A DNA stretch of 64,000 nt from Agelas oroides (lineage: Eukaryota > Porifera > Demospongiae > Agelasida > Agelasidae): assembly GCA_949130485.1 (NCBI GenBank), contig OX422198.1, forward strand, positions 4,527,262-4,591,261. The letters run 5' to 3'. Every line of letters begins with the position of its first letter. The stretch's first letter is position 1. The notes below the pieces were generated by a model. That model saw only the letters and a list, made by a program, of their open reading frames with translations, had not been told where the DNA came from and did no database searches. Positions 1 to 25,621 of this stretch are shown here, one piece after another. The translations under genes and the position numbers were made by a program.

Positions 1-238
1 CATAGTCCTACTTGCCTCTGCATGATCATACTACATTCTACCATGGCTCTACTTGACTCTACTTGACTCTACTACATTCTACCATGGCTCCACGTGACTC
101 TACTTGACTCTACTGCATTCTACCAATGCTCTACCTGGCTCTACTACATTCTACCATGGCTCTACTTGGCTCTACATGACTCTACTACATGCTACCATGG
201 CTCTACTTGGCTCTACTTGAGTCTACTACACTCTACCA

Positions 239-651
239 TTGCTGTACTTGGCTCTACTTGACTCTACTACACTCTACCATGGCTCTACTCCATTGTATAC
301 CATGGCTCTTCTTCACACTACATGGCTCTACTACATTCTACCATGGTTCCAATTGAATCTACTACACTCTACCATAGCTCTACTCCATTGTACCATGGCT
401 CTACTTGACACTACATGCATATGACTCTACTACATTCTACCATAGCTCTACTTCACTCTACTACATTCTACGATGGCTCTACTTGGCTCTACTTGACTCT
501 ACTACACTATACCATTGCTAGACCTCGCTCTACTTGTCTCTCCTACACTCCACCTTTGCTCTACTACATCCTACCATGGTTCCACGTGACTTTTCTTTAC
601 TCTACTACACTCTACCATGGCTGTACCTGGCTCTACTACATTCTACCATGA
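239..651 (+). repeat. Block A copy 1, CATATG type
   Basis: Full block A. Its marks, in order, are TTGCTGTACTTGG, CCATTGTATACC, TTCCAATTGAATC, TGCATATGAC, CTAGACCTCG and CACGTGACTTTTCTTTAC. These marks define the module wherever it recurs. Confidence 0.9.
250..280 (+). repeat. Reference 31-bp monomer showing the decamer substructure
   Basis: This is a clean copy of the commonest monomer. The CTCTAC cores start at bases 3, 13 and 23 of the unit, so they are spaced 10, 10 and, across the junction to the next unit, 11 bp. The final CCAT joins the GG of the next unit to form CCATGG. Nearly all other monomers are substitutions of this one or gain or lose one decamer. Confidence 0.95.
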
Positions 652-1275
652 CTCTACGTGACTCTACATGACTCTACTACATTCTACCATGGCTCTACTT
701 GACTCTCCTTCAGTCCACTACACTCTACTTTGGCTCTACTTGGCTCTACTTGCCTCTACTACACACTACCATGGCTCTACTTGGCTCTACTTCACTCTAC
801 CATGGCTCTACTTGGCTCTACTTGACTCTACTACACTATACCATGGCTCTACTCCATTGTACCATGGCTCTACTTGACACTACATGACTCTACTACATTC
901 TACCATTGCTAGACCTGGCTCTACTTGTCTCTACTACACTCTACCTTGGCTCTACTACATCCTACCATGGATCCTCGTGACTCTACTTGACTCTACCACA
1001 CTCTACCATGGCTCTACCTGGCTCTACTACATTCTACCATGGTTCTACTTGACTCTGCATGATCCTACTACATTCTACCATGGCTCTACTTGACTCTAAT
1101 TGACTCTACTACATTCTACCATGGCTCCATGCGACTCTACTTGACTCTACTGCATTCTACCAATGCTCTACCTGGCTCTACTACATTCTACCATGGCTCT
1201 ACTTTGCTCTACATGACTCTACTACATGCTACCATGGCTCTACTTGGCTCTACTTGAGTCTACTACACTCTACCA

Positions 1276-1665
1276 TTGCTGTACTTGGCTCTACTTGACT
1301 CTACTACACTCTACCATGGCTCTTCTTCACACTACATGGCTCTACTACATTCTACCATGGTTCCAATTGAATCTACTACACTCTACCATAGCTCTACTCC
1401 ATTGTACCATGGCTCTACTTGACACTACATGCATATGACTCTACTACATTCTACCATAGCTCTACTTCACTCTACTACATTCTACGATGGCTCTACTCGG
1501 CTCTACTTGACTCTACTACACTATACCATTGCTAGACCTCGCTCTACTTGTCTCTACTACACTCTACCTTGGCTCTACTACATCCTACCATGGTTCCACG
1601 TGACTTTTCTTTACTCTACTACACTCTACCATGGCTCTACCTGGCTCTACTACATTCTACCATGA
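1276..1665 (+). repeat. Block A copy 2, CATATG type, 23 bp shorter
   Basis: As copy 1 but without about 23 bp containing CCATTGTATACC. It lies only 1037 bp after copy 1; the same spacing separates the block A copies at 10757 and 11794. Confidence 0.88.
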
Positions 1666-3432
1666 CTCTACGTGATTCTACATTACTCTACTACATTCTA
1701 CCATGGCTCTACTTGACTCTCCTTCAGTCCACTACACTCTACTTTGGCTCTACTTGGCTCTACTTGCCTCTACTACACACTACCATGGCTCTACTTGGCT
1801 CTACTGCACTCTACCATGGCTCTACTTGGCTCTACTTGACTCTACTACACTATACCATGGCTCTACTCCATTGTACCATGGCTCTACTTGATACTACATG
1901 ACTCTACTACATTCTACCATGGCTCTACTTGACTCTACTACATTTTATGATGGCTCTACTTGGCTCTACTTGGCTCTACTTGACTCTACTACACTATACC
2001 ATTGCTAGACCTGGCTCTACTTGTCTCTACTTCACTCTACCTTGGCTCTACTACATCCTACCATGAATCCACGTGATTTTACTTGACTCTACTGCACTCT
2101 ACCATGCCTCTACCTGGCTCTACTACATTCTACCATGGCTCTACTTGACTCTACATGAATCTACTACATTCTACCATGGCTCTACTTGACTCTCCTTGAG
2201 TCCAGTACACTCTAACTTGGCTCTACTTCGCTCTACTTGACTCTACTACACTCTACCATGGCTCTACTTGGCTCTACTTGACTCTACTACACTATACCAT
2301 GGCTCTACTCCATTGTACCATGGCTCTACTTGACACTAGATCACTCTACTACATTCTACCATGGTTCTACTTGACTCTACTACATTCTACGATGGCTCTA
2401 CTTGGCTGTACTTGACTCTACTACACTATACCATTGCTAGACCTGGCTCTTCTTGTCTGTACTTCACTCTACCTTAGCTGTACTACATGCTACCATGGAT
2501 CCACGTGACTCTACTTGTCTCTACTACACTCTACCATGGCTCTACCTGGCTCTACTACATTCTACCATGGATCTACTTGACTCTACATGATTCTACTACA
2601 TTCTACCATGGCTCTACTTGACTCTGCTTGAGTCCACTACACTCTACCTTGACTCTACTTGGCTCTATTTGACTGTACTACACACTACCATGGCTCTACT
2701 TGGCTCTACTACACTCTACCATGGCTCTACTTGGCTCTACTTGACTCTACTTGACTCTACTACATTCTGCCGTGGTTCTACTTGACTCTACGTGACTGTA
2801 CTACACTCTACCTTGGCTTTACTACTTTCTCCCATGGTTCCACGTGACTCTACTTGACTCTCTACCTGGCTCTACTACATTCTACCATGGCTCTACTTGG
2901 CTCTAAATGACTCTACTACATGCTACCATGGCTCTACTTGTCTCTACATGACTCTACTGCATGCTACCGTGGCTCTACCCCATTGTACCATGGCTCTACT
3001 TGACACTACATGATTCTACTAAGTTCTACCGTGGCTCTTCTTGACTCTACTTGACTCTCCTACACCCTACCATTACTCTACTTGTCTCTACTACACTCTA
3101 CCATGGCTCTACTTTGCTTTACTTGACTCTACTACACCCTACCATGGCTCTACTTGTCTCTACTTGACTCTACTACACTCTACCATGGCTCTACTACATT
3201 CTACCATTGCTCCATGTTACTCTACTTGACTCTACTACATTCTACAATAGCTCTACTTGACTCTACTACACTATACCATGGCTCTACTTGGCTCTACATG
3301 ACTCTACTACATGCTACCGTGGCTCTACTTGGCTCTACCTCACTCTACTACACTCTACCATGGCTCTACTTGGCTCTACTACACTCTACGATGGTTCTAT
3401 TTGGCTCTACTTGACTCTACTACACTCTACCA

Positions 3433-3710
3433 TTGCTGTACTTGGCTCTACTTGACTCTACTACACTCTACCATGGCTCTACTCCATTGTATACCATGGC
3501 TATTCTTCACACTACATGGCTCTACTACATTCTACCATGGTTCCAATTGAATCTACTACACTCTACCATAGCTCTACTCCATTATACCATGGCTCTACTT
3601 CACACTACATGCATATGACTCTACTACATTCTACCATAGCTCTACTTCACTCTACTACATTCTACGATGGCTCTACTTGGCTCTACTTGACTCTACTACA
3701 CTATACCATT
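3433..3710 (+). repeat. Block A copy 3, chimeric end
   Basis: Has CCATTATACC and CTTCACACTACATGCATATG, then leaves the block A order after about 3710 (CCTAGACCTGG in place of CTAGACCTCG) and continues as a different module. Confidence 0.85.
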
Positions 3711-4334
3711 CCTAGACCTGGCTGTACTTGTCTCTACTTCAGTCTACCTTGGCTCTACTACATCCTACCATGCATCCACGTGATTTTAATTGACTCTACT
3801 ACACTCTATCATCGCTCTACCACGTTGTACTACATTCTACCATGGCTCTACTTGACTCTCCTTGAGTCCACTACACTCTAAGTTAGTTCTACTTTGCTCT
3901 ACTTGACTCTACTACACACTACCATGGCTCTACTTGGCTCACCTACACTCTACCATGGCTCTACTTGGCTCTACTTGATCTACTACACTATACCATGGCT
4001 CTACTCCATTGTACAATGGCTCTCCTTGACACTACATGACTCTACTACATCCTACCATGGCTCTACTTGACTCTACTACATTCTACGATGGCTCTACTTG
4101 GCTCTACTTGACTCTACTACACTATACCATTGCTAGACCTGGCTCTACTTGTCTCTACTTCGCTCTACCTTTGCTCTACTACATCCTACCATGGATCCAC
4201 GTGACTCTACTTGACTCTTCTACACTCTACCATGGGTCTACCTGGCTCAACTACATTCTACCATGGCTCTACTTGACTCTACATGACTCTACTACATTCT
4301 ACCATGGCTCAACTTGGCTCTACTTGACTCTACT

Positions 4335-5620
4335 ACCTTCTACAATGGCTCTACTCAATTGTACCATGGCTCTACTTGACACTACATGACTCTACTACAT
4401 TCTAACTTGGCTCTACTTGACTCTACTACACACTACCATGGCTCTACTTGGCTCTACTTGACTCTAGTACACTATACCATTGCTAAACCTGGGTCTCCTT
4501 GTCTCTACTACACTCTACCTTGGCTCTACTACATCCTACCATGGATCCACGTGACTCTACTTGACTCTACTACACTCTACCCTGGCTCTACCTGGCTCTA
4601 CTACATTCTACCATGGCTCTACTTGACTCTACATGACACTACTACATTCTACCATGGCTCTACTTGACTCTACTTGACTCTACTACACTCTACCATGGCT
4701 CTACTTGGCTCTACTTGACTCTACTACACTCTACCATGTCTCTACTACATTCTACCATGGCTCCACGTGACTCTACGTGAGTCCACTACACTCTACTTTG
4801 GCTCTACTTGGCTCTACTGGCCTCTACTACACACTACCATGCCTCTACATGGCTCCACTACACTCTACCATGGCTCTACTTGGCTCTATTTGACTCTACT
4901 ACACTATACCATGGCTCTACTCCATTGTACCACGCCTCTACTTGACACTACATGACTCTACTACATTCTACCATGGCTCTACTTCACTCTACTACACACT
5001 ACGATGGCTCTACTTGGCTCTACTTGACTCTACTACACTATACCATGTCTCTACTACATTCTTCCATGGCTCCACGTGACTCTACGTGAGTCCACTACAC
5101 TCTACTTTGGCTCTAGTTGGCTCTACTGGCCTCTACTACACACTACCATGCCTCTACATGGCTCCACTACACTCCACCATGGCTCTACGTGGCTCTACTT
5201 GACTCTACTACACTATACCATGGCTCTACTCCATTGCATCACGCCTCTACTTGACACTACATGACTCTACTACATTCTACCATTGGTCTACTTGACTCTA
5301 CTACATTCTACGATGGCTCTACTTGGCTCTACTTGACTCTACTACACTATACCATTGCTAGGCCTGGCTTTACTTGTCTCTACTTCACTCTACCTTGTCT
5401 CTACTGCATCCTACCATGGATCCACGTGACTCTACTTGACTGTACTACACTCTACCATGGATCTACCTGGATTTACTACATTCTACCATGGCTCTACTTG
5501 ACTCTACATGACTCTACTACATTCTACCATGGCTCTACTTGACTCAACTTGAGTCTACTACACACTACCTTGGCTCTACTTGGCTCTACTTGGCTCTACT
5601 TGACTCTACTTGACTCTACT
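4335..5620 (+). repeat. Local tandem amplification, unit 1 (1286 bp)
   Basis: The marker ACCTTCTACAATGG starts at 4335 and recurs at 5621 and 5930, giving spacings of 1286 and 309 bp. Inside are two GAGTCCACTACAC-type segments (4767 and 5076) whose translations are almost identical. The corresponding marker in copy 2 of the super-HOR lies at about 15285, slightly mutated, and occurs there only once. Confidence 0.85.
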
Positions 5621-5929
5621 ACCTTCTACAATGGCTCTACTCAATTGTACCATGGCTCTACTTGACACTACATGACTCTACTACATTCTAACTTGGCTCT
5701 ACTTGACTCTACTACACACTACCATGGCTCTACTTGGCTCTACTTGACTCTAGTACACTATACCATTGCTAAACCTGGGTCTCCTTGTCTCTACTACACT
5801 CTACCTTGGCTCTACTACATCCTACCATGGATCCACGTGACTCTACTTGACTCTACTACACTCTACCCTGGCTCTACCTGGCTCTACTACATTCTACCAT
5901 GGCTCTACTTGACTCTACATGACTCTACT
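5621..5929 (+). repeat. Local tandem amplification, partial unit (309 bp)
   Basis: A short partial repeat of the start of the 4335 unit, running from one ACCTTCTACAATGG marker to the next. It ends within a monomer, so the junction at 5929/5930 is an unequal-exchange scar that joins two matching decamers without loss of register. Confidence 0.8.
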
Positions 5930-7133
5930 ACCTTCTACAATGGCTCTACTCAATTGTACCATGGCTCTACTTGACACTACATGACTCTACTACATTCTAA
6001 CTTGGCTCTACTTGACTCTACTACACACTACCATGGCTCTACTTGGCTCTACTTGACTCTAGTACACTATACCATTGCTAAACCTGGGTCTCCTTGTCTC
6101 TACTACACTCTACCTTGGCTCTACTACATTCTACCATGGCTCTACTTGACTCTACATGACACTACTACATTCTACCATGGCTCTACTTGACTCTACTTGA
6201 CTCTACTACACTCTACCATGGCTCTACTTGGCTCTACTTGACTCTACTACACTCTACCATGTCTCTACTACATTCTACCATGGCTCCACGTGACTCTACG
6301 TGAGTCCACTACACTCTACTTTGGCTCTACTTGGCTCTACTGGCCTCTACTACACACTACCATGCCTCTACATGGCTCCACTACACTCTACCATGGCTCT
6401 ACTTGGCTCTATTTGACTCTACTACACTATACCATGGCTCTACTCCATTGTACCACGCCTCTACTTGACACTACATGACTCTACTACATTCTACCATGGC
6501 TCTACTTCACTCTACTACACACTACGATGGCTCTACTTGGCTCTACTTGACTCTACTACACTATACCATGTCTCTACTACATTCTTCCATGGCTCCACGT
6601 GACTCTACGTGAGTCCACTACACTCTACTTTGGCTCTAGTTGGCTCTACTGGCCTCTACTACACACTACCATGCCTCTACATGGCTCCACTACACTCCAC
6701 CATGGCTCTACGTGGCTCTACTTGACTCTACTACACTATACCATGGCTCTACTCCATTGCATCACGCCTCTACTTGACACTACATGACTCTACTACATTC
6801 TACCATTGGTCTACTTGACTCTACTACATTCTACGATGGCTCTACTTGGCTCTACTTGACTCTACTACACTATACCATTGCTAGGCCTGGCTTTACTTGT
6901 CTCTACTTCACTCTACCTTGTCTCTACTGCATCCTACCATGGATCCACGTGACTCTACTTGACTGTACTACACTCTACCATGGATCTACCTGGATTTACT
7001 ACATTCTACCATGGCTCTACTTGACTCTACATGACTCTACTACATTCTACCATGGCTCTACTTGACTCAACTTGAGTCTACTACACACTACCTTGGCTCT
7101 ACTTGGCTCTACTTGGCTCTACTTGACTCTACT
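5930..7133 (+). repeat. Local tandem amplification, unit 2 (about 1.2 kb)
   Basis: From about 6120 to 7133 this matches 4597-5610 at a constant offset of 1523 bp with few or no differences in the parts compared (4767/6290, 5076/6599 and 5261/6784 give identical translations). It lacks about 72 bp near 6120 relative to unit 1. Beyond 7133 the sequence returns to the super-HOR order. Confidence 0.85.
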
Positions 7134-9009
7134 ACACTCTACCATGTCTCTACTACATTCTACCATGGCTCTACTTCACTCTACTACATTCTACGTTGGC
7201 TCTACTTGACTCTACTTGACTCTAGTACACTATACCATTGCTAGGCCTGGCTTTCCTTGTCTCTACTTCACTCTACCTTGTCTCTACTGCATCCTACCAT
7301 GGATCCACGTGACTCTACTTGACTCTACTACACTCTACCATCGCTCTACCTGGCTTTACTACATTCTACCATGCCTCTACTTAACTCTATACATGACTCT
7401 ACTACATTCTACCATGGCTCTACTTGGCTCTCCTTGAGTCCACTACACTCTACCTTGGCTCTACTTTGCTCTACTTGACTCTACTACACACTACCATGGC
7501 TCTACTTGGCTCTACTACACACTACCATGGCTCTACTTGGCTCTACTACACTCTACCATGGCTCTACTTGGCTCTACTACACTCTACCATGGCTCTACTT
7601 GGCTGTACTTGACTCTACTACACTTTACCATGACTCTACTACATTGTACCATGGCTCTACTTGACACTACATGACTCTACTACATTCTATCATGGGTCTA
7701 CTTTTCTCTACTGCATTCTACAATGGCTGTACTTGGCTCTACTTGACTCTACTACACAATACCATTGTTAGACCTGGCTCTACTTGTCTCTACTTCACTC
7801 TACCTTGGCTCTACTACATCCTACCATGGATCAACGTGACTCTACTTGACTCTACTACCCTCTACCATGGCCCTACCTGGATTTATTACATTCTACCATG
7901 GCTCTACTTGACTCTACATGACTCTACTACATTCTACCATGGCTCTACTTGACTCTACTTGAGTCCACTACACACTACCTTGGCTCTACTTGGCTCTACT
8001 TGGCTCTACTTGACTCTACTACACTCTACCATGTCTCTACTACGTTCTACCATGGCTCTACTTGACTCTACTTCACTCTACTACACTCTACCATGGCTCT
8101 ACTTGGCTCTACTTGACTCTACTACACACAACCAGGGCTCTACTTGGCTCTACTACACTCTACCATGGCTCTACTTGGCTGTACCTGAATCTACTACACT
8201 ATACCATGGCTCTACTCCATTGTACCATGGCTCTACGTGACACTACATGACTCTACTACACTCTACCATGTCTCTACTACATTCTACCATGGCTCCACGT
8301 GACTCTACGTGACTCTACAACATTCTACCATAGCTCTACTTGACTCTGTATGCCTCTACTACATTCTACCATGCCTCTACTTCACTCTACTACATTCTAC
8401 GTTGGCTCTACTTGACTCTACTTGACTCTACTACACTATACCATTGCTATACCTGACTCTACTTGTCTCTACTATACCCTACCTTGGCTCTACTACATCC
8501 TACCATGGATCCACGTGACTCTACTTGACTCTACTACACCCTACCATGGGTCTACCTGGTTCTACAACATTCTACCATGGCTCTACTTGACTATACATGA
8601 CTCTACTACATTCTACCATGGCTCAACTTGGCTCTACTTGACTCTACTACACTCTACCATGGCTCTACTCCATTGTATCATGGCTCTACTTGACACTACA
8701 TGATTCTACTAAGTCCTACCGTGGCTCTTCTTGACTCTACTTGACTCTCCTACACCCTACCATTGCTCTACGTGTCTCTACTACACTCTACCATGGCTCT
8801 ACTTTGCTCTACTTGACTCTACTACACTCTACCATGGCTCTACTTGTCTCTACTTGACTCTACTACACTCTACCATGCGTGTACTACATTCTACCATTGC
8901 TCCACGTTACTCTACTTGGCTCTACTACATTCTACAATAGCTCTACTTGACTGTACTACATTCTACCATGGCTCTACTTGGCTCTACTTGAGTCTACTAC
9001 ACTCTACCA
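7134..9009 (+). repeat. Super-HOR segment paired with about 16.2-18.07 kb
   Basis: Pairs with the second super-HOR copy at offset 9067, then 9036. Both copies share a private 2-base TA insertion in CTCTATACATGAC (about 7388 and 16454) and a variant with GGTCTACTTTTCTCTAC (about 7695 and 16731), which supports common descent rather than convergence. Confidence 0.8.
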
Positions 9010-9422
9010 TTGCTGTACTTGGCTCTACTTGACTCTACTACACTCTACCATGGCTCTACTCCATTGTATACCATGGCTCTTCTTCACACTACATGGCTCT
9101 ACTACATTCTACCATGGTTCCAATTGAATCTACTACACTCTACCATAGCTCTACTCCATTGTACCATGGCTCTACTTGACACTACATGCATATGACTCTC
9201 CTACAGTCTACCATAGCTCTACTTCACTTTACTACATTCTACGATGGCTCTACTTGGCTCTACTTGACTCTACTACACTATACCATTGCTAGACCTCGCT
9301 CTACTTGTCTCTACTACACTCTACCTTGGCTCTACTACATCCTACCATGGTTCCACGTGACTTTTCTTTACTCTACTACACTCTACCATGGCTCTACCTG
9401 GCTCTACTACATTCTACCTTGA
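9010..9422 (+). repeat. Block A copy 4, CATATG type
   Basis: Full length, with a private TCTCCTACAGTC change near 9198. Confidence 0.88.
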
Positions 9423-10379
9423 CTCTACGAGACTCTACATGACTCTACTACATTCTACCATGGCTCTACTTGACTCTCATTGAGTCCAGTACTCTCTAAC
9501 TTGGCTCTACTTGGCTCTACTTGACTCTACTACACTCTACCATGGCTCTACTTGGCTCAACTACACTCTACCATGGCTCTACTTGGCTCTACTTGACTCT
9601 ACTACACTATACCATGGCTCTACTCCATTGTACCATGGCTCTACTTGAAACTAGATCACTCTACTACATTCTACTATGGCTCTACTTGACTCTACTACAT
9701 TCTACGATGGCTCTACTTGGCTGTACTTGACTCTACTACACTATACCATTGCTACACCTGGCTCTACTTGTCTCTACTTCACTCTACCTTAGCTGTACTA
9801 CATCCTTCCATGGATCCACGTGAATCTACTTGACTCTACTACACTCTACCATGGCTCTACCTGGCTCTTCTACATTCTACCAAGGCTCTACTTGACTCTA
9901 CATGACTCTACTACATTCTACTGTGGCTCTACTTGACTCTGCTTGAGTCCACTACACTCTACCTTGACTCTACTTGGCTCTACTTGACTCTACTACACAC
10001 TACCATGGCTCTACTTGGCTCTACTACACTCTACCATGGCTCTACTTTGCTCTACTTGACTCTACTACACCCTACCATGGCTCTACTTGTCTCTACTTGA
10101 CTCTACTACACACTACCATGGCTCTACTACATTCTACCATTGCTCCACGTTACTCTACTTGACTCTACTACATTCTACAATAGCTCTACTTGACTCTACT
10201 GCACTATACCATGGCTCTACTTGGCTCTACATGACTCTACTACATGCTACCGTGGCTCTACTTGGCTCTACCTTACTCTATGATGGCTCTACCTCACTCT
10301 ACTACACTCTACCATGGCTCTACTTGGCTCTACTACACTCTACGATGGCTCTATTTGGCTCTACTTGACTCTACTACAC

Positions 10380-10560
10380 TATATCATTGCTAGACCTGGC
10401 TGTACTTGTCTCTACTACACTCTACCTTGGCTCTACTACATCCTACCATGGATCCTCGTGACTCTACTTGACTCTACCACACTCTACCATAGCTCTACCT
10501 GGCTCTACTACATTCTACCATGGTTCTACTTGACTCTGCATGATCATACTACATTCTACC
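10380..10560 (+). repeat. Block C, representative copy with ATGATCAT palindrome
   Basis: Block C follows ATATCATTGCTAGACC and contains GGATCCTCGTGAC, CTACCACACTC and CTGCATGATCATAC. The exact 8-bp palindrome ATGATCAT is at 10540-10547. Intact copies of the 8-mer start at 22, 10540, 11577, 21786, 24992, 28506, 32942, 36370, 38362, 40356, 42811, 45585, 48048, 50085, 54511, 58268, 61024 and 63189. Degenerate copies lie near 1059 and 14124. Block C usually comes 200-280 bp before block A. Confidence 0.88.
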
Positions 10561-10756
10561 ATGGCTCTACTTGACTCTACTTGACTCTACTACATTCTAC
10601 CATGGCTCCACGTGACTCTACTTGACTCTACTGCATTCTACCAATGCTCTACCTGGCTCTACTACATTCTACCATGGCTCTACTTGGCTCTACATGACTC
10701 TACTACATGCTACCATGGCTCTACTTGGCTCTACTTGAGTCTACTACACTCTACCA

Positions 10757-11169
10757 TTGCTGTACTTGGCTCTACTTGACTCTACTACACTCTACCATGG
10801 CTCTACTCCATTGTATACCATGGCTCTTCTTCACACTACATGGCTCTACTACATTCTACCATGGTTCCAATTGAATCTACTACACTCTACCATAGCTCTA
10901 CTCCATTGTACCATGGCTCTACTTGACAGTACATGCATATGACTCTACTACATTCTACCATAGCTCTACTTCACTCTACTACATTCTACGATGGCTCTAC
11001 TTGGCTCTACTTGACTCTACTACACTATACCATTGCTAGACCTCGCTCTACTTGTCTCTACTACACTCCACCTTTGCTCTACTACATCCTACCATGGTTC
11101 AACGTGACTTTTCTTTACTCTACTACACTCTACCATGGCTCTACCTGGCTCTACTACATTCTACCATGC
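10757..11169 (+). repeat. Block A copy 5, CATATG type
   Basis: Partner of copy 1 in the second super-HOR (offset 10518). It shares CACTCCACCTTTGC with copy 1 and has TTCAACGTGAC instead of the E-box. Confidence 0.9.
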
Positions 11170-11793
11170 CTCTACGTGACTCTACATGACTCTACTACAT
11201 TCTACCATGGCTCTACTTGACTCTCCTTCAGTCCACTACACTCTACTTTGGCTCTACTTGGCTCTACTTGCCTCTACTACACACTACCATGGCTCTACTT
11301 GGCTCTACTTCACTCTACCATGGCTCTACTTGGCTCTACTTGACTCTACTACACTATACCATGGCTCTACTCCATTGTACCATGGCTCTACTTGACACTA
11401 CATGACTCTACTACATTCTACCATTGCTAGACCTGGCTCTACTTGTCTCTACTTCACTCTACCTTGGCTCTACTACATCCTACCATGGATCCTCGTGACT
11501 CTACTTGAGTCTACCACACTCTACCATGGCTCTACCTGGCTCTGCTACATTCTACCATGGTTCTACTTGACTCTGCATGATCATACTACATTCTACCATG
11601 GCTCTACTTGACTCTACTTGACTCTACTACATTCTACCATGGCTCCACGTGACTCTACTTGACTCTACTGCCTTCTACCAATGCTCTACCTGGCTCCACT
11701 ACATTCTACCATGGCTCTACTTGGCTCTACATGACTCTACTACATGCTACCATGGCTCTACTTGGCTCTACTTGAGTCTACTACACTGTACCA

Positions 11794-12185
11794 TTGCTGT
11801 ACTTGGCTCTACTTGACTCTACTACACTCTACCATGGCTCTACTCCATTGTATACCTTGGCTCTTCTTCACACTACATGGCTCTACTACATTCTACCATG
11901 GTTCCAATTGAATCTACTACACTCTACCATAGCTCTACTCCATTGTACCATGGCTCTACTTTACACTACATGCATATGACTCTACTACATTCTACCATAG
12001 CTCTACTTCACTATACTTGGCTCTACTTGACTCTACTACACTATACCATTGCTAGACCTCGCTCTACTTGTCTCTACTACACTCTACCTTGGCTCTACTA
12101 CATCCTACCATGGTTCCACGTGACTTTTCTTTACTCTACTACACTCTACCATGGCTCTACCTGGCTCTACTACATTCTACCATGA
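11794..12185 (+). repeat. Block A copy 6, CATATG type, about 21 bp shorter
   Basis: Partner of copy 2. It keeps the 23 bp missing there but lacks about 21 bp after CTCTACTTCACTATAC near 12014. Confidence 0.88.
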
Positions 12186-14341
12186 CTCTACGTGATTCTA
12201 CATTACTCTACTACATTCTACCATGGCTCTACTTGACTCTCCTTCAGTCCACTACACTCTACTTTGGCTCTACTTGGCTCTACTTGCCTCTACTACACAC
12301 TACCATGGCTCTACTGCACTCTACCATGGCTCTACTTGGCTCTACTTGACTCTACTACACTATACCATCGCTCTACTCCATTGTACCATGGCTCTACTTG
12401 ACACTACATGACTCTACTACATTCTACCATGGCTCTACTTGACTCTACTACATTTTACGATGGCTCTACTTGGATCTACTTGGCTCTACTTGACTCTACT
12501 ACACTATACCATTGCTAGACCTGGCTCTACTTGTCTCTACTTCACTCTACCTTGGCTCTACTACATCCTACCATGGATCCACGTGATTTTACTTGACTCT
12601 ACTGCACTCTACCATGCCTCTACCTGGCTCTACTACATTCTACCCTGGCTCTACTTGACTCTACATGAATCTACTACATTCTACCATGGCTCTACTTGAC
12701 TCTCCTTGAGTCCAGTACACTCTAACTTGGCTCTACTTCGCTCTACTTGACTCTACTACACTCTACCATGGCTCTACTTGGCTCAACTACACTCTACCAT
12801 GGCTCTACTTGGCTCTACTTGACTCTACTACACTATACCATGGCTCTACTCCATTGTACCATGGCTCTACTTGACACTAGATCACTCTACTACATTCTAC
12901 CATGGTTCTACTTGACTCTACTACATTCTACGATGGCTCTACTTGGCTGTACTTGATTCTACTACACTATACCTTTGCTAGACCTGGCTCTTCTTGTCTG
13001 TACTTCACTCTACTTTAGCTGTACTACATGCTACCATGGATCCACGTGACTCTACTTGTCTCTACTACACTCTACCATGGCTCTACCTGGCTCTACTACA
13101 TTCTACCATGGCTCTACTTGACTACATGACTCTACTACATTCTACCATGGCTCTAATTGACTCTGCTTGAGTCCACTACACTCTACCTTGACTCTACTTG
13201 GCTCTATTTGACTGTACTACACACTACCATGGCTCTACTTGGCTCTACTACACTCTACCATGGCTCTACTTGGCTCTACTTGACTCTACTTGACTCTACT
13301 ACATTCTGCCGTGGTTCTACTTGACTCTACGTGACTGTACTACACTCTACCTTGGCTTTACTACTTTCTGCCATGATTCCACGTGACTCTACTTGACTCT
13401 CTACCTGGCTCTACTACATTCTACCATGGCTCTACTTGGCTCTAAATGACTCTACTACATGCTACCATGGCTCTACTTGTCTCTACATGACTCTACTGCA
13501 TGCTACCGTGGCTCTACCCCATTGTACCATGGCTCTACTTGACACTACATGATTCTACTAAGTTCTACCGTGTCTCTTCTTGACTCTATTTGACTCTCCT
13601 ACACCCTACCATTACTCTACGTGTCTCTACTATACTCTACCATGGCTCTACTTTGCTCTACTTGACTCTACTACACCCTACCATGGCTCTACTTGTCTCT
13701 ACTTGACTCTACTACACTCTACCATGGCTCTACTACATTCTACCATTGCTCCATGTTACTCTACTAGACTCTACTACATTCTACAATAGCTCTACTTGAC
13801 TCTACTACACTATACCATGGCTCTACTTGGCTCTACATGACTCTACTACATGCTACCGTGGCTCTACTTGGCTCTACCTCACTCTACTACACTCTACCAT
13901 GGCTCTACTTGGCTCTACTACACTCTACGATGGTTCTATTTGGCTCTATTTGACTCTACTACACTATATCATTGCTAGACCTGGCTGTACTTATCTCTAC
14001 TACACTCTACCTTGGCTCTACTACATCCTACCATGGATCATCGTGACTCTACTTGACTCTACCACACTCTACCATGGCTCTACCTGGCTCTACTACATTC
14101 TACCATGGTTCTACTTGACTCTGCATAATCATACTACATTCTACCATGGCTCTACTTGACTCTACTTGACTCTACTACATTCTAACATGGCTCAACGTGA
14201 CTCTACTTGACTCTACTGCATTCTACCAATGATCTACCTGGCTCTACTACATTCTACCATGGCTCTACTTGGCTCTACATGACTCTACTACATGCTACCA
14301 TGGCTCTACTTGGCTCTACTTGAGTCTACTACACTCTACCA

Positions 14342-14619
14342 TTGCTGTACTTGGCTCTACTTGACTCTACTACACTCTACCATGGCTCTACTCCATTGTA
14401 TACCATGGCTATTCTTCACACTACATGGCTCTACTACATTCTACCATGGTTCCAATTGAATCTACTACACTCTACCATAGCTCTACTCCATTATACCATG
14501 GCTCTACTTCACACTACATGCATATGACTCTACTACATTCTACCATAGCTCTACTTCACTCTACTACATTCTACGATGGCTCTACTTGGCTCTACTTGAC
14601 TCTACTACACTATACCATT
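14342..14619 (+). repeat. Block A copy 7, chimeric end
   Basis: Partner of copy 3 (offset 10909), with the same CCATTATACC and CTTCACACTAC marks and the same early exit from the block A order. Confidence 0.85.
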
Positions 14620-17600
14620 GCTAGACCTGGCTCTACTTGTCTCTACTTCAGTCTACCTTGGCTCTACTACATCCTACCATGCATCCACGTGATTTTACTT
14701 GACTCTACTACACTCTATCATCGCTCTACCACGTTGTACTACATTCTACCATGGCTCTACTTGACTCTACATGACTCTACTACATTCTACCATGGCTCTA
14801 CTTGACTCTCCTTGAGTCCACTACACTCTAACTTAGTTCTACTTTGCTCTACTTGACTCTACTACACACTACCATGGCTCTACTTGGCTCACCTACACTC
14901 TACAATGGCTCTACTTGGCTCTACTTGATCTACTACACTATACCATGGCTCTACTCCATTGTACAATGGCTCTCCTTGACACTACATGACTCTACTACAT
15001 CCTACCATGGCTCTACTTGACTCTACTACATTCTACGATGGCTCTACTTGGCTCTACTTGACTCTACTACACTATACCATTGCTAGACCTGGCTCTACTT
15101 GTCTCTACTTCGCTCTACCTTTGCTCTACTACATCCTACCATGGATCCACGTGACTCTACTTGACTCTTCTACACTCCACCATGGGTCTACCTGGCTCAA
15201 CTACATTCTACCATGGCTCTACTTGACTCTACATGACTCTACTACATTCTACCATGGCTCAACTTGGCTCTACTTGACTCTACTATCCTCTACAATGGCT
15301 CTACTCAATTGTACCATGGCTCTACTTGACACTACATGACTCTACTACATTCTAACTTAGCTCTACTTGACTCTACTACACACTACGATGGCTCTACTTG
15401 GCTCTACTTGACTCTAGTATACTATACCATTGCTAAACCTGGCTCTCCTTGTCTCTACTACACTCTACCTTGGCTCTACTACATCCTACCATGGATCCAC
15501 GTGACTCTACTTGACTCTACTACACTCTACCCTGGCTCTACCTGGCTCTACTACATTCTACCATGGCTCTACTTGACTCTACATGACACTACTACATTCT
15601 ACCATGACTCTACTTGACTGTACTTGACTCTACTACACTCTACCATGGCTCTACTTGGCTCTACTTGACTCTACTACACTCTACCATGTCTCTACTACAT
15701 TCTACCATGGCTCCACGTGACTCTACGTGAGTCCACTACACTCTACTTTGGCTCTACTTGGCTCTACTGGCCTCTACTACACACTACCATGCCTCTACAT
15801 GGCTCCACTACACTCTACCATGGCTCTACTTGGCTCTACTTGACTCTACTACACTATACCATGGCTCTACTCCATTGTACCACGCCTCTACTTGACAATA
15901 CATGACTCTACTACATTCTACCATGGCTCTACTTCACTCTACTACACACTACGATGGCTCTACTTGGCTCTACTTGACTCTACTACACTATACCATGTCT
16001 CTACTACATTCTACCATGGCTCCACGTGACTCTACGTGAGTCCACTACACTCTACTTTGGCTCTACTTGGCTCTACTGGCCTCTACTACACACTACCATG
16101 CCTCTACATGGCTCCACTACACTCTACCATGGCTCTACGTGGCTCTACTTGACTCTACTACACTATACCATGGCTCTACTCCATTGTACCACGCCTCTAC
16201 TTGACACTACATGACTCTACTACATTCTACCATGGGTCTACTTGACTCTACTACATTCTACGATGGCTCTACTTGGCTCTACTTGACTCTACTACACTAT
16301 ACCATTGCTAGGCCTGGCTTTACTTGTCTCTACTTCACTCTACCTTGTCTCTAGTGCATCCTACCATGGATCCACGTGACTCTACTTGACTCTACTACAC
16401 TCTACCATCGCTCTACCTGGCTCTTCTACATTCTACCATGGCTCTACTTGACTCTATACATGACTCTATTACATTCTACCATGGCTCTACTTGGCTCTCC
16501 TTGAGTCCACTACACTCTATCTTGGCTCTACTTTGCTCTACTTGACTCTACTACACACTACCATGGCTCTACTTGACTCTACTACACTCTACCATGGCTA
16601 TACTTGGCTCTACTAAACTCTACCATGGCTCTACTTGGCTGTACTTAACTCTACTACAGTATACCATGGCTCTAATACATTGTACCATGGCTCTACTTGA
16701 CACTACATGACTCTACTACATTCTATCATGGGTCTACTTTTCTCTACTACATTCTATGATGGCTGTACTTGGCTCTACTTGACTCTACTACACTATACCA
16801 TTGTTAGACCTGGCTCTACTTGTCTCTACTTCACTCTACCTTGGCTCTACTACATCCTACCATGGATGAACGTGACTCTACTTGACTCTACTACACTCTA
16901 CCATGGCTCTACCTGGATTTACTACATTCTACCATGGCTCTACTTGACTCTACATGACTCTACTACATTCTACCATGGCTCTACTTGACTCTACTTGAGT
17001 CCACTACACTCTACCTTGGCTCTACTTGGCTCTACTTGGCTCTACTTGACTCTACTACACTCTACCATGTCTCTACTACATTCTAGCATGGCTCTACTTG
17101 ACTTTACTTGACTCTACTGCACTCTACCATGGCTCTACTTAGCTCTAGTTGACTCTACTACACACTACCAGGACTCTACTTGGCTCTACTACACTCTACC
17201 ATGGCTCTACTTGGCTGTACCTGAATCTACTACACTATACCATGGCTCTACTCCATTGTACAATGGCTCTACGTGACACTACATGACTCTACTACACTCT
17301 ACCATGTCTCTACTACATTCTACCATTGCTCCATGTGACTCTACGTGACTCTACGATATTCTACCATAGCTCTACTTGACTCTGTATGCCTCTACTACAT
17401 TCTACCATGGCTCTACTTCACTCTACTACATTCTACGTTGGCTCTACTTGACTCTACTTGACTCTACTACACTATACCATTGCTATACCTGGCTCTACTT
17501 GTCTCTACTACACTCTACCTTGGCTCTACTACATCCTACCATGGATCCACGTGACTCTACTTGACTGTACTACACCCTACCATGGGTCTACCTGGCTCTA

Positions 17601-18086
17601 CTGCATTCTACCATGGCTCTACTTGACTCTACATGACTCCACTACATTCTACCATGGCTCAACTTGGCTCTACTTGACTCTACTACACTCTACCATGGCT
17701 CTACTCCATTGTATCATGGCTCTACTTGACACTACATGATTCTACTAAGTCCTACCGTGGCTCTTGTTGACTCTACTTGACTCTCCTACACCCTACCATT
17801 CCTCTACGTGTCTATACTACACTCTACCATGGCTCTACTTTGCTGTACTTGACTCTACTACACTCTACCATGGCTCTACTTGTCTCTACTTGACTCTACT
17901 ACACTCTACCATGGGTCTACTACATTCTACCATTGCTCCACGTTACTCTACTTGGCTCTACTACATTCTACAATAGCTCTACTTGACTCTACTACATTCT
18001 ACCATGGCTCTACTTGTCTCTACATGACTCTACTACATGCTACCATGGCTCTACTTGGCTCTACTTGAGTCTACTACACTCTACCA

Positions 18087-18499
18087 TTGCTGTACTTGGC
18101 TCTACTTGACTCTACTACACTCTACCATGGCTCTACTCCATTGTATACCATGGCTATTCTTCACACTACATGGCTCTACTACATTCTACCATGGTTCCAA
18201 TTGAATCTACTACACTCTACCATAGCTCTACTCCATTATACCATGGCTCTACTTGACACTACATGCACATGACTCTACTACATTCTACCATAGCTCTACT
18301 TCACTCTACTACATTCTACGTTGGCTCTACTTGGCTCTACTTGACTCTACTACACTATACCATTGCTAGACCTCGCTCTACTTGTCTCTACTACACTCTA
18401 CCTTGGCTCTACTACATCCTACCATGGTTCCACGTCACTTTTCTTTACTCTACTACACTCTACCATGGCTCTACCTGGCTCTACTGCATTCTACCTTGA
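18087..18499 (+). repeat. Block A copy 8, CACATG type
   Basis: Carries TGCACATGAC in place of TGCATATGAC, TACGTTGG, and CACGTCACTTTT, which destroys the CACGTG palindrome. This set of changes defines the type found in the 2-kb HORs. Confidence 0.9.
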
Positions 18500-19795
18500 C
18501 TCTACGTGACTCTACATGACTCTACTACATTCTTCCATGGCTCTACTTGACTCTCCTTGAGTCCAGTACACTCTAACTTGGCTCTACTTGGCTCTACTTG
18601 ACTCTACTACACTCTACCATGGCTCTACTTGGCTCAACTACACTCTACCATGGCTCTACTTGGCTCTACTTGACTCTACTACACTATACCATGGCTCTAC
18701 TCCATTGTACCATGCCTCTACTTGACACTAGATCACTCTACTACATTCTACTATGGCTCTACTTGACTCTACTACATTCTACGATGGCTCTACTTGGCTG
18801 TACTTGACTCTACTACACTATACCATTGCTAGACCTGGCTGTACTTGTCTCTACTTCACTCTACCTTAGCTGTACTACATCCTTCCATGGATCCACGTGA
18901 CTCTACTTGACTCTACTACACACTACCATGGCTCTACTTGGCTCTACTACACTCTACCATGACTCTACTTGGCTCTACTTGACTCTACTTGACTCCACTA
19001 CATTCTGCCATGGCTCTACTTGACTCTACGTGACTGTACTACACTCTACCTTGGCTCTACTACTTTCTGCCATGGTTCCACATGACTCTACTTGACTCTA
19101 CTGCATTCTACCATGGCTCTACCTGGCTCTACTACATTCTACCATGGGTCTACTTGGCTCTAAATGACTCTACTACATGCTACCATGGCTCTACTTGTCT
19201 CTACATGACTCTACTGCATGCTACCGTGGCTCTACTTGACACTACATGATTCTTCTAACTTCTACCGTGGCTTTTCTTGACTCTACTTGACTCTCCTACA
19301 CCCTACCATTACTCTACGTGTCTCTACTACACTCTACCATGGCTCTACTTTGCTCTACTTGACTCTACTACACCCTACCATGGCTCTACTTGAATCTACT
19401 ACATTCTACAATAGCTCTACTTGACTAAACTACACTATACCATGGCTTTACTTGGCTCTACATGACTCTACTACATGCTACCGTGGCTCTACTTGGCTCT
19501 ACCTCACTCTACTACACTCTACCATGACTCTACTTGGCTCTACTACACTCTATGATGGTTCTACCTCACTCCACTACACTCTACCATGGCTCTACTTGGC
19601 TCTACTACACTCTACGATGGCTCTATTTGGCTCTACTTGACTCTACTACACTATATCATTGCTAGACCTGGCTGTACTTGTCTCTACTACACTCTACCTT
19701 GGGTCTACTACATCCTACCATGGATCCTCGTGACTCTACTTGAGACTACCACACTCTACCATGGCTCTACCTGGCTCTACTACATTCTACCATGA
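18087..19795 (+). repeat. About-2-kb HOR, shortened copy
   Basis: Begins with block A and follows the same module order as 23236-24975 (initial offset 5149). Relative to that copy it lacks 21 and then 72 bp between about 19.2 and 19.4 kb and keeps 62 bp near 19.5 kb that the later copy lacks. At about 19795 it switches into the segment that elsewhere follows block A (as at 25621), so the HOR was cut and rejoined there. Confidence 0.8.
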
Positions 19796-20190
19796 CTCTA
19801 CGTGACTCTACATGACTCTACTACATTCTACCATGGCTCTACTTGACTCTCATTCAGTCCACTACACTCTACTTTAGCTCTACTTGGCTGTACTTGCCTC
19901 TACTACACACTACCATGGCTCTACTTGGCTCTACTGCACTCTACCATGGCTCTACTTGGCTCTACTTGACTCTACTACACTATACCATGGCTCTACTCCA
20001 TTGTACCATGGCTCTACTTGACACTACATGACTATACTACATTCTACCATGGCTCTACTTGACTCTACTATATTTTACGATGGCTCTACTTGGCTCTACT
20101 TGGCTCTACTTGACTCTACTACACTATACCATTGATAGACCTGGCTCTACTTGTCTCTACTTCACTCTACCTTGGCTCTACTACATCCTA

Positions 20191-20205
20191 CCATGGATCC
20201 ACGTG
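20191..20205 (+). repeat. Composite palindrome variant CCATGGATCCACGTG (representative)
   Basis: Three palindromes overlap or abut within 15 bp: CCATGG, TGGATCCA and CACGTG. This variant monomer end recurs at fixed places in the HORs throughout the window, for example near 4190, 6940, 15140, 22732, 30890, 41330, 46915 and 57105. CACGTG is the core of the canonical E-box; any protein binding here is conjecture. Confidence 0.8.
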
Positions 20206-22002
20206 ATTTTACTTGACTCTACTGCACTCTACCATGGCTCTACCTGGCTCTACTACATTCTACCATGGCTCTACTTGACTCCACAGACTCTACTACATTC
20301 TACTATGGCTCTACTTGACTCTCCTTGAGTCCAGTACACTCTAACTTGGCTCTACTTCGCTCTACTTGACTCTACTACACTCTACCATGGCTCTACTTGG
20401 CTCAACTACACTCTACCATGGCTCTACTTGGCTGTACTTGACTCTACTACACTACACCATGGCTCTACTCCATTGTACCATGGCTCTACTTGACACTAGA
20501 TCACTCTACTACATTCTACCATGGCTCTACTTGACTCTACTACATTCTACGATGGCTCTACTTGGCTGTACTTGACTCTACTACCCTATACCATTGCTAG
20601 ACCTGGCTCTACTTGTCTGTACTTCACTCTACCTTAGCTGTACTACATCCTACCATGGATCCACGTGACTCTACTTGACTCTACTACACCCTACCATGGC
20701 TCTACCTGGCTCTACTACATTCTACCATGGCTCTACTTGACTCTGCTTGAGTCGACTACACTCTACCTTGACTCTACTTGGCTCTACTTGACTGTACTAC
20801 ACACTACCAAGGCTCTACTTGGCTCTACTACACTCTACCATGGCTCTACTTGGCTCTACTTGACTCTACTCGACTCTACTACATTCTGCCGTGGCTCTAC
20901 TTGACTCTACGTGACTGTACTACACTCTACCTTGGCTCTACTACTTTCTGCCATGGTTCTACGTGACTCTACTTGACTCTACTGCATTCTACCATGGCTC
21001 TACCTGGCTCTACTACATTCTACCATGGATCTACTTAGCTCTAAATGACTTTACTACATGCTACCATGGCTCTACTTGTCTCTACATGACTCTACTGCAT
21101 GCTATCGTGGCTCTACCCCATTGTACCATGGCTCTACTTGACACTACATAATTCTACTAAGTTCTACCGTGGCTCTTCTTGACTCTACTTGACTGTCCTA
21201 CACCCTACCATTACTCTACGTGTCTCTACTACACTCTACCATGGCTCTACTTTGCTCTACTTGACTCTACTACACCGTACCAACGCTCTACTTGTCTCTA
21301 CTTGACTCTACTACACTCTACCATGGCTCTACTACATTCTACCATTGCTCCACGTTACTCTACTTGACTCTACTACATTCTACAATAGCTCTACTTGACT
21401 CTACTACATTATACCATGGCTCTACTTGGCTCTACATGACTCTACTACATACTACCGTGGCTCTACTTGGCTCTACCTCACTCTACTACACTCTACCATG
21501 GCTCTACTTGGTTCTACTACACTCTATGATGGCTCTACCTCACTCTACTACACTCTACCATGGCTCTACTTGGCTCTACTACACTCTACGATGGCTCTAT
21601 TTGGCTCTACTTGACTCTACTACACTATGTCATTGCTAGACCTGGCTGTACTTGTCTCTACTACACTCTACCTTGGCTCTACTACATCCTACCATGGATC
21701 CTCGTGACTCTACTTGACTCTACCACACTCTACCATGGCTCTACCTGGCTCTACTACATTCTACCATGGTTCTACTTGACTCTGCATGATCATACTACAT
21801 TCTACCATGGCTCTCCTTGACTCTATTTGACTCTACTACATTCTAACACGGCTAAACGTGACTCTACTTGACTCTACTGCATTCTACCAATGATCTACCT
21901 GGCTCTACTACATTCTACCATGGCTCTACTTGGCTCTACATGACTCTACTACATGCTACCATGGCTCTACTTGGCTCTACTTGAGTCGACTACACTCTAC
22001 CA

Positions 22003-22411
22003 TTGCTGTACTTGGCTCTACTTGACTCTACTACACTCTACCATGGCTCTACTCCATTGTATACCATGGCTATTCTTCACACTACATGGCTCTACTACAT
22101 TCTACCATGGTTCCAATTGAATCTACTACACTCTACCATAGCTCTACTCCATTGTACCATGGCTCTACTTGACACTACATGCATATGACTCTACAACATT
22201 CTACCATAGCTCTACTTCACTCTACTACATTCTACGATGGCTCTACTTGGCTCTACTTGACTCTACTACACTATACCATTGCTAGACCTCGCTCTACTTG
22301 TCTCTACTACACTCTACCTTGGATCTACTACATCATACCATGGTTCCACGTGACTCTTCTTGACTCTACTACACTCTACCATGGCTCTACCTGGCTCTAC
22401 TGCATTCTACC
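22003..22411 (+). repeat. Block A copy 9, CATCATACC type
   Basis: Has CTCTACAACATTC, ACATCATACC and CACGTGACTCTTCTTGAC; preceded by GAGTCGACTACAC. The same set recurs at 43028 and 48265. Confidence 0.9.
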
Positions 22412-23235
22412 ATGGCTCTACTTGACTCTACATGACTCCACTACATTCTACCATGGCTCAACTTGGCTCTACTTGACTCTACTACACTCAACCATGGCTC
22501 TACTACATTCTACCATGGCTCCATGTGACTCTACGTGACTCTACGATATTCTACCATAGCTCTACTTGACTCTGTATGCCTCTACTACATTCTACCATGG
22601 CTCTACTTCACTCTACTACATTGTACGTTGGCTCTACTTGACTCTACTTGACTCTACTACACTATACCATTGCTATACCTGGATCTACTTGTCTCTACTA
22701 CACTCTACCTTGGCTCTACTACATCCTACCATGGATCCACGTGACTCTACTTGACTCTACTACACCCTACCATGGGTCTACCTGGCTCTACTGCATTCTA
22801 CCATGGCTCTACTTGACTCTACATGACTCCACTACATTCTACCATGGCTCAACTTGGCTCTACTTGACTCTACTACACTCTACCATGGCTCTACTCCATT
22901 GTATCATGGCTCTACTTGACACTACATGATTCTACTAAGTCCTACCGTGGCTCTTGTTGACTCTACTTGACTCTCCTACACCCTACCATTCCTCTACGTG
23001 TCTATACTACACTCTACCATGGCTCTACTTGTCTCTACTTGACTGTACTACACTCTACCATGGGTCTACTACATTCTACCATTGCTCCACGTTACTCTAC
23101 TTGGCTCTACTACATTCTACAATAGCTCTACTTGACTCTACTACATTCTACCATGGCTCTACTTGTCTCTACATGACTCTACTACATGCTACCATGGCTC
23201 TACTTGGCTCTACTTGAGTCTACTACACTCTACCA

Positions 23236-23648
23236 TTGCTGTACTTGGCTCTACTTGACTCTACTACACTCTACCATGGCTCTACTCCATTGTATACCAT
23301 GGCTATTCTTCACACTACATGGCTCTACTACATTCTACCATGGTTCCAATTGAATCTACTACACTCTACCATAGCTCTACTCCATTATACCATGGCTCTA
23401 CTTGACACTACATGCACATGACTCTACTACATTCTACCATAGCTCTACTTCACTCTACTACATTCTACGTTGGCTCTACTTGGCTCTACTTGACTCTACT
23501 ACACTATACCATTGCTAGACCTCGCACTACTTGTCTCTACTACACTCTACCTTGGCTCTACTACATCCTACCATGGTTCCACGTCACTTTTCTTTACTCT
23601 ACTACACTCTACCATGGCTCTACCTGGCTCTACTGCATTCTACCTTGA
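23236..23648 (+). repeat. Block A copy 10, CACATG type
   Basis: As copy 8, with the private change CTCGCACTAC that is otherwise seen only at 34552-34964. Confidence 0.9.
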
Positions 23649-25208
23649 CTCTACGTGACTCTACATGACTCTACTACATTCTTCCATGGCTCTACTTGAC
23701 TCTCCTTGAGTCTAGTACACTCTAACTTGGCTCTACTTGGCTCTACTTGACTCTACTACACTCTACCATGGCTCTACTTGGCTCAACTACACTCTACCAT
23801 GGCTCTACTTGGCTCTACTTGACTCTACTACACTATACAATGGCTCTACTCCATTGTACCATGCCTCTACTTGACACTAGATCACTCTACTACATTCTAC
23901 TATGGCTCTACTTGACTCTACTACATTCTACGATGGCTCTACTTGGCTGTACTTGACTCTACTACACTATACCATTGCTAGACCTGGCTGTACTTGTCTC
24001 TACTTCACTCTACCTTAGCTGTACTACATCCTTCCATGGATCCACGTGACTCTACTTGACTCTACTACACACTACCATGGCTCTACTTGGCTCTACTACA
24101 CTCTACCATGACTCTACTTGGCTCTACTTGACTCTACTTGACTCCACTACATTCTGCCATGGCTCTACTTGACTCTACGTGACTGTACTACACTCTACCT
24201 TGGCTCTACTACTTTCTGCCATGGTTCCACATGACTCTACTTGACTCTACTGCATTCTACCATGGCTCTACCTGGCTCTACTACATTCTACCATGGGTCT
24301 ACTTGGCTCTAAATGACTCTACTACATGCTACCATGGCTCTACTTGTCTCTACATGACTCTACTGCATGCTACCGTGGCTCTACCCCATTGTACCATGGC
24401 TCTACTTGACACTACATGATTCTTCTAACTTCTACCGTGGCTTTTCTTGACTCTACTTGACTCTCCTACACCCTACCATTACTCTACGTGTCTCTACTAC
24501 ACTCTACCATGGCTCTACTTTGCTCTACTTGACTCTACTACACCCTACCATGGCTCTACTTGTCTCTACTTGACTCTACTACACTCTACCATGGCTCTAC
24601 TGCATTCTACCATTGCTCCACGTTACTCTACTTGAATCTACTACATTCTACAATAGCTCTACTTGACTAAACTACACTATACCATGGCTCTACTTGGCTC
24701 TACATGACTCTACTACATGCTGCCGTGGCTCTACTTGGCTCTACCTCACTCCACTACACTCTACCATGGCTCTACTTGGCTCTACTACACTCTACGATGG
24801 CTCTATTTGGCTCTACTTGACTCTACTACACTATATCATTGCTAGACCTGGCTGTACTTGTCTCTACTACACTCTACCTTGGGTCTACTACATCCTACCA
24901 TGGATCCTCGTGACTCTACTTGAGACTACCACACTCTACCATGGCTCTACCTGGCTCTACTACATTCTACCATGGTTCTACTTGACTCTGCATGATCATA
25001 CTACATTCTACCATGGCTCTACTTGACTCTACTTGACTCTACTACATTCTACCATGGCTCCACGTGATTCTACTTGACTCTACTGCATTCTACCAGTGCT
25101 CTACCTGGCTCTACTACATTCTACCATGGCTCTACTTGGCTCTACATGACTCTACTACATGCTACCATGGCTCTACTTGGCTCTACTTGAGTCTACTACA
25201 CTCTACCA
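23236..25208 (+). repeat. About-2-kb HOR, single copy (1973 bp)
   Basis: Runs from one block A to the next. It matches 34552 onwards at a constant offset of 11316 up to about 24.7 kb, including the private CTCGCACTAC change inside block A, so this copy is especially close to the first member of the 34.5-40.5 kb tandem series. It lacks 62 bp near 24.75 kb. Confidence 0.85.
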
Positions 25209-25621
25209 TTGCTGTACTTGGCTCTACTTGACTCTACTACACTCTACCATGGCTCTACTCCATTGTATACCATGGCTCTTCTTCACACTACATGGCTCTA
25301 CTACATTCTACCATGGTTCCAATTGAATCTACTACACTCTACCATAGCTCTACTCCATTGTATCACGGCTCTACTTAACACTACATGCATATGACTCTAC
25401 TACATTCTACCATAGCTCTACTTCCCTCTACTACATTCTACGATGGCTCTACTTGGCTCTACTTGACTGTAATACACTATACCATTGCTAGACCTCGCTC
25501 TACTTGTCTCTACTACACCCTACCTTGGCTCTACTACATCCTACCATGGTTCAACGTGACTTTTCTTTACTCTACTACACTCTACCATGGCTCTACCTGG
25601 CTCTACTACATCCTACCATGA
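25209..25621 (+). repeat. Block A copy 11, TATCACGG type
   Basis: Has CCATTGTATCACGG, CTTCCCTCTAC and CTGTAATACAC. It keeps the CTTTTCTTTAC end that the other members of this type have lost. Confidence 0.9.

Follow-up and report, generated by a model that had tools for sequence, protein, structure and literature searches.

A decamer-based satellite of the sponge Agelas oroides whose TA steps recur close to the DNA helical pitch

Periodic satellites can arise in the absence of selection under Smith's neutral model of unequal exchange, as reviewed in the excerpted text of PMC8122249. Other work, represented here by excerpts of PMC5844345 and PMC8997354, holds that a WW periodicity of about 10 bp favours rotational phasing of satellites and may drive their spread. 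For Prodsat of Drosophila melanogaster the authors propose that a 10-bp dinucleotide periodicity favours such phasing (PMC5844345, in part), and nucleosomes on CentC track an AA/TT periodicity of about 10 bp and not the monomer register (PMC3053214, likewise in part). The idea of rotational phasing is already published for other satellites.

The satellite described here resembles Prodsat, and the related 5-mers of D. melanogaster centromeres, in being built of tandem units of about 10 bp, here of 10 and 11 bp. Unlike what is described for Prodsat in the available text, the two lengths are mixed in units of 21, 31 and 41 bp. Moreover, the Prodsat signal is an AA periodicity accompanied by cenH3 ChIP, whereas here AA is nearly absent and the satellite is known from sequence alone; the 10-bp AA periodicity of Prodsat was not found in the window analysed. 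With maize CentC (about 156 bp) and rice CentO, as far as the excerpts describe them, it shares a dinucleotide periodicity of about 10 bp, but the CentC monomer covers about one nucleosome and carries an AA/TT signal, where we find decamers and TA. Human satellites II and III are not known to be related to it in sequence. They and other short-unit pericentromeric satellites, which lie in pericentric blocks (PMC8122249, partial text), are similar in having short units. A search of the literature by the core string and by '31-bp' found no publication naming this satellite. Judged by its sequence, it appears to add one more example to a known kind, one that has TA, TC and TG in place of AA and TT. 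By analogy with CentC, its nucleosomes would be expected to track the periodicity rather than the monomer register.

Anatomy of the satellite block

The window, the whole stretch of 64 kb analysed here, covers positions 4527262-4591261 of contig C16 in assembly G000 (259.3 Mb, 141 contigs), and all of it lies within a satellite block of about 0.5 Mb. Samples of C16 at 4.35, 4.40, 4.45, 4.52, 4.59, 4.65, 4.69, 4.70 and 4.80 Mb were satellite and those at 4.20, 4.30, 4.86 and 4.90 Mb were not; the first match of one 52-base pattern in the block is at 4.311 Mb, and the satellite switches strand near 4.69-4.70 Mb (sample L048). Within the window, composition is uniform (GC 0.44, with a GC skew of -0.44 to -0.49 in every 2-kb slice) and orientation is single, CTCTAC occurring 3555 times and its reverse complement 0 times. 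Dynamic-programming tiling resolved the window into 6203 monomers of three types, which have a CTCTAC core in common and differ in their tails.

1..64000, forward strand: satellite array (dynamic-programming tiling, TRF rows spanning the window, CTCTAC strand count, GC and GC skew)
Monomer a, forward strand: TCTACTTGRC, 10 bp, 2521 in the window (dynamic-programming tiling)
Monomer b, forward strand: TCTACTACAY, 10 bp, 1934 in the window (dynamic-programming tiling)
Monomer c, forward strand: TCTACCATGGC, 11 bp, 1748 in the window (dynamic-programming tiling)
250..280, forward strand: the abc unit of the preliminary description, with cores at 252, 262 and 272 and the next at 283 (sequence read directly)
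28001..34441, forward strand: duplicated segment, with its copy at about 49580-56000, an offset of about 21569 (blastn, 1-kb blocks 98.1-99.7% identical)
1..1000, forward strand: repeated segment, with its copy at 10519-11518 (blastn, 99.0% identical)

The preliminary description had reported TA-bearing CTCTAC cores spaced 10, 10 and 11 bp at 250-280, and the four core starts listed above bear this out. Over the window, about 72% of monomers are of 10 bp and about 28% of 11 bp; the mean tiled monomer is 10.32 bp and few are off length. Among the units that close with c, aabc leads (41 bp, 801 in the window), followed by abc (31 bp, 354) and bc (21 bp, 329). Unit lengths take the form 10k+1 because one 11-bp monomer, c, closes each unit and the others are of 10 bp. 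Selection on helical phase, which had been put forward to explain this rule, is not demonstrated by it, since the rule follows from the monomer lengths.

The self-match of the sequence was 0.642 at a lag of 41 bp, 0.606 at 72 bp, 0.584 at 175 bp, 0.570 at 216 bp and 0.509 at 185 bp, and 0.203 at 145 bp, which is off register. A 186-bp register of six 31-bp units had also been proposed. It fails here, the match at lag 186 being only 0.226 against 0.584 at 175 and the commonest unit being of 41 bp, and a run of 31-bp units was rejected on the same grounds as the architecture of the window. Many 1-kb blocks have a second copy within the window at 98-99.9% identity (blastn against the window), and the duplication of 28001..34441 has the appearance of a recent segmental amplification. 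From the anatomy and the copies, which are observed, we infer an order of growth in which an ancestral unit of about 10 bp would have given 10- and 11-bp monomers, these the units of 21, 31 and 41 bp, and these in turn the kilobase segmental copies. Unequal exchange and segmental copying acting on a decamer founder could explain this anatomy.

A coding role was considered and rejected (the 64 kb contain 8 open reading frames that reach 120 aa or more, the longest of 165 aa), as was a structured RNA (no Rfam match at the gathering score). No inverted repeats of 12 bp or more were reported in the first 3 kb of the window, a CENP-B-box-like pattern occurred 0 times in the window, and the exact insect telomere repeat was not found. 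The block most likely consists of packed DNA of a (peri)centromere-like or heterochromatic kind.

The TA period and its physical reading

The strongest TA line over the window lies at 10.28 bp, with 154 times the median power. TA coherence per 147 bp was 11.39, compared with 3.00 (SD 0.12) in 20 dinucleotide-preserving shuffles made from the window's first 20 kb; at periods of 10.0 and 11 bp the window's value was down to 8.66 and 2.38 respectively. A period of about 10.33 bp sustained over the array had been claimed beforehand; the line is indeed sharp over the window, but sits at 10.28 bp. The Fourier analysis of TA positions that had been suggested as a check thus gave its peak near 10.3 bp, and the refuting outcome named in advance, the absence of such a peak, did not occur. 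The peak is shared with TC (x144), CTCTAC (x117), TG (x106) and CT (x99), all at the same 10.28-bp period. AA, with 364 occurrences in 64,000 bp, has no line above x2. Intact TCTAC holds 4268 of the 7557 TA steps in the window; another 1266 come second in TACTAC, where they fall 3 bp off phase.

Elsewhere, 19 samples from blocks that are large or switch strand had their best period at 10.27-10.34 bp. In the four samples that contain small or broken arrays (L040-L043) it was 10.22-10.47 bp, with a weaker line. TA coherence per 147 bp was nearly alike in the two, at 9.4-10.9 in small-array pieces and 10.4-11.8 in large-block samples. We give virtually no weight to chance, or to an artefact of searching for short motifs, as the source of the phasing: it is already refuted by the coherence against shuffles and by the same line in other blocks. 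The 10.28-bp line belongs to the monomer and not to TA. It is not specific to TA because the array is tiled by 10- and 11-bp monomers, and its period follows from the mixture of about 72% and 28% of the two. On balance we think it probable that the helical phasing of this large decamer-based satellite is set by monomer length, as a by-product and not as a selected trait.

The physical side of the preliminary description, a period near the helical pitch, was a fair reading, if a mixed one. The dinucleotide period stays near the helical pitch over a nucleosome length, as in satellites of the CentO/CentC type. Downstream of TA, the phase of GG is 5.2 bp, of GC 6.1 bp and of all SS steps 5.1 bp, as the WW/SS rule wants; TT and AT, at 3.6 and 4.0 bp from TA, are nearly on the wrong side, and AA hardly occurs at all (0.8 per 147 bp). 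The summed WW-SS amplitude at 10.2 bp averaged 13.3 in 1278 satellite windows (5-95% range 6.1-21.9) and 8.6 in 836 flank windows from 12 loci, whose range of 2.3-16.7 overlaps that of the satellite. It was 9.9 in letter shuffles and 15.8 in the synthetic 601, a comparison with one sequence.

Octamers on the satellite would be predicted to have one preferred rotational setting, with TA facing inward and GG and GC outward. The self-match at 175 bp is near a nucleosome repeat, but those at 41, 72 and 216 bp are similar. With no single translational position marked, nucleosomes could sit at successive steps of about 10 bp. Judged by these features rotational positioning is plausible, and nucleosomes on the satellite would probably have a rotational setting in common but no fixed translational position.

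If the TA steps were under selection, they might be expected to change less than other letters. For the window together with 13 further array samples we pooled comparisons of best-matching copies, omitting columns with differing monomer assignment, dropping pairs under the identity cut-off and treating sites as independent. Compared in this way, TA positions differed in 313 of 20743 columns and other A/T positions in 539 of 34048 (OR 0.95, p=0.52), while G/C positions differed in 1388 of 51829 and A/T positions in 852 of 54791, so that rates mostly follow base identity. An initial test of TA against all positions had pointed to constraint (OR 0.75, p=0.025), because G/C positions change more; this signal vanished against other A/T positions in the pooled data and was discarded. 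The TA letters show no sign of constraint, in a test with little power against slight selection, since each nucleosome has roughly 14 phased TA steps and any one of them matters little.

The order of units was also considered as a form of phase correction at the nucleosome scale, and rejected. At 14 monomers the phase SD was 1.594 bp in the real sequence, 1.520 (SD 0.036) with units shuffled and 2.009 with monomers shuffled. Shuffling units gave an equal or smaller phase SD at 3-56 monomers, and the real order was tighter than unit shuffles only at 100 and 200 monomers, with margins of about 1 and 2 SD respectively.

Other blocks and neighbouring repeats

The mean monomer was 10.28-10.33 bp in all 11 further large-block samples, two of them from the window's own block, with shares of 0.43-0.46 for a, 0.26-0.29 for b and 0.26-0.28 for c. 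Only 1-2% of the 40-mers in samples from C2, C8 and C11 are present in the window. The large blocks therefore have a common grammar and separate amplification. The SD of mean length among the 11 samples, calculated by hand, is about 0.018 bp, compared with 0.022 for window stretches of about 200 monomers (SD 4.4 bp per 200). Since the spread between blocks is much like that within the window, no stabilising force need be invoked.

Exact patterns lie on at least 14 of 23 or more large contigs among the matches listed, namely C1, C2, C3, C6-C9, C11, C13, C14, C16, C18, C20 and C21. Matches on C1 are listed at three places, and samples from two of these hold small or broken arrays. A 26-mer has 5666 exact matches in the genome and 108 in the window, from which crude scaling puts the family at roughly 3.4 Mb in total. 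Several contigs have two satellite sites: C3 at 8.1-8.8 and 11.6-12.3 Mb, C14 at 2.8-3.2 and 5.9-6.0 Mb, C16 at 1.7-1.86 and 4.31-4.81 Mb, and C13 at 2.53 and 5.37 Mb, the second C13 site resting on one exact match. On these four contigs 2.4-2.9 Mb lie between the sites, which are mostly in opposite orientation on C14 and C16. The two sites of a pair might lie on either side of a centromere, or be the trace of a fusion or inversion. Orientation also switches inside single 10-kb samples, in L048 (C16 4.69-4.70 Mb), L040 and L043.

Other repeats were seen along the way. A 181-bp tandem repeat of 18 copies adjoins the satellite on C13 (L041:5689-8948) and has 410 matches; since these form small clusters on many contigs, it resembles a repeat internal to a mobile element rather than a centromere satellite. 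A dispersed element of about 230-250 bp (L044:5156-5385 and 20 copies, L051-L070) has ends that match each other in reverse orientation, and at least 108 matches, from 40 scored of 2607 first-look candidates; by eye it is MITE-like. At the start of C17 (L050:664-3000), self-matches in 55-bp steps, 100% identical, mark a 55-bp tandem repeat at the contig end, perhaps subtelomeric. C107 of the same assembly (16,816 bp) has a COX1-like frame, read without TGA, and looks bacterial, as from a symbiont or contaminant. The mitochondrial COX1 (TGA=Trp) is on C141 (positions 13976-16550 of a 22.4-kb contig), in two pieces 1.2 kb apart, the gap probably being an intron.

Short indels and the register of large blocks

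The large blocks differ from small or broken arrays in their short indels. Relative to substitutions, indels of 1-9 bp numbered 174/6037 in large blocks and 128/1431 in small or broken arrays, three times rarer in the former (p=1.9e-19, treating sites as independent and dropping pairs under the stated identity). Four identity bands were compared, and in every one the large blocks had the lower ratio (p 0.005 to 5e-9). In contrast, indels longer than 9 bp were equally common (166/6037 and 43/1431), and in an earlier run with unequal identity cut-offs these were mostly whole units. The contrast itself was first obtained in that run; we rely on the run at matched settings, which comprised 18 samples of large blocks, including six slices of the window, and 8 small or broken pieces. 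L034 was trimmed to 9 kb, the short samples L014, L015, L022-L024 and L044 were left out, and L033 contributes only 14 substitutions.

The 'small or broken' class was set by us, as those pieces of L040-L043 whose array stops, is interrupted or changes strand within its 10-kb sample; the arrays in L040, L041 and L043 may extend beyond what was sampled, and the indels of L042 had been noticed by eye before the test was designed. L042:5263-6643 (C1, 10.56 Mb) is a 1.4-kb copy of the satellite in ordinary-looking DNA, and 33 of its 132 monomers are off length. When the two small pieces richest in indels were dropped, 74/1198 remained and the contrast persisted (p=4e-7); with loci as units it gave p=0.024 (10 against 4 loci). 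The classes overlap, two of the eight small pieces (L040- and L043+a) resembling large blocks and the large samples L033 and L034 resembling small ones. Pieces assigned to neither set, namely L045, L048 and the end of L034, took an intermediate value of 68/1323. As outside comparisons, the 21 copies of the dispersed repeat of the same genome showed 15 distinct short indels against 123 distinct substitutions (p=1e-5 against large blocks), an imperfect control since it has runs of four or five A or T, which favour indels; the 181-bp tandem repeat had 2 to 39 in 18 copies (p=0.30).

A deficit of short indels with longer ones equal is not predicted by a purely neutral account, and the scarcity is compatible with selection on register. 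One form of such selection would act on rotational phasing: nucleosomes, perhaps centromeric ones, would need the register, so that indels which shift the phase are eliminated, whereas substitutions and the gain or loss of whole units are allowed. The contrast in all four identity bands, its survival when the indel-rich pieces are dropped, the distance from the dispersed repeat, and a 10.28-bp TA line with SS steps about 5 bp away speak for this reading. Contrary to phase selection, however, indels of 4-6 bp, about half a turn, are not more depleted than those of 1-2 bp (1-2 bp against 4-6 bp was 116/33 in large blocks and 78/26 in small arrays, p=0.65). The value with loci as units, the overlapping and intermediate pieces, and a 181-bp tandem repeat no different from large blocks also speak against it, as do off-length monomers that lean toward insertions in 11 of 11 large-block samples, TA bases that are not favoured, TT and AT out of phase and AA nearly absent. 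We regard this form of selection as unlikely. The earlier suggestion of selection on helical phase finds an echo in the scarce short indels, but not in the specific avoidance of half-turn lengths, in extra constraint on TA or in a phase correction by unit order.

A second possibility is that the register serves a protein other than histones, with CTCTAC presented about once per turn on one face of the helix for cooperative binding. The core is common to all monomer types whose tails differ, orientation is single throughout the window, and the same short-indel data would fit; Prod on the 10-bp Prodsat offers a precedent for a satellite with its own protein (PMC5844345, in part). No core-specific constraint stands out in recent changes, though, whose rates mostly follow base identity, and we hold phased protein sites to be unlikely. 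The broader statement that large blocks are held in register, with indels of a few bases purged while substitutions, TA steps included, and whole-unit indels are free, seems to us decidedly unlikely, and is made less likely because half-turn indels are not specially avoided. The contrast concerns spacing and not TA, and could also stem from differences in exchange and age between large and relic arrays.

Centromere biology has yet to settle whether good wrapping of nucleosomes is what makes satellites spread, and the TA pattern alone does not argue that it did so here. If the register reading were true, selection would act on spacing and not on sequence, and rotational phasing could be read from indel spectra. 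Should the contrast instead be due to exchange or age, it would caution against reading function from a 10-bp line. In either case, the indel contrast suggests a sequence-only test, spacing kept and letters free, for any decamer satellite.
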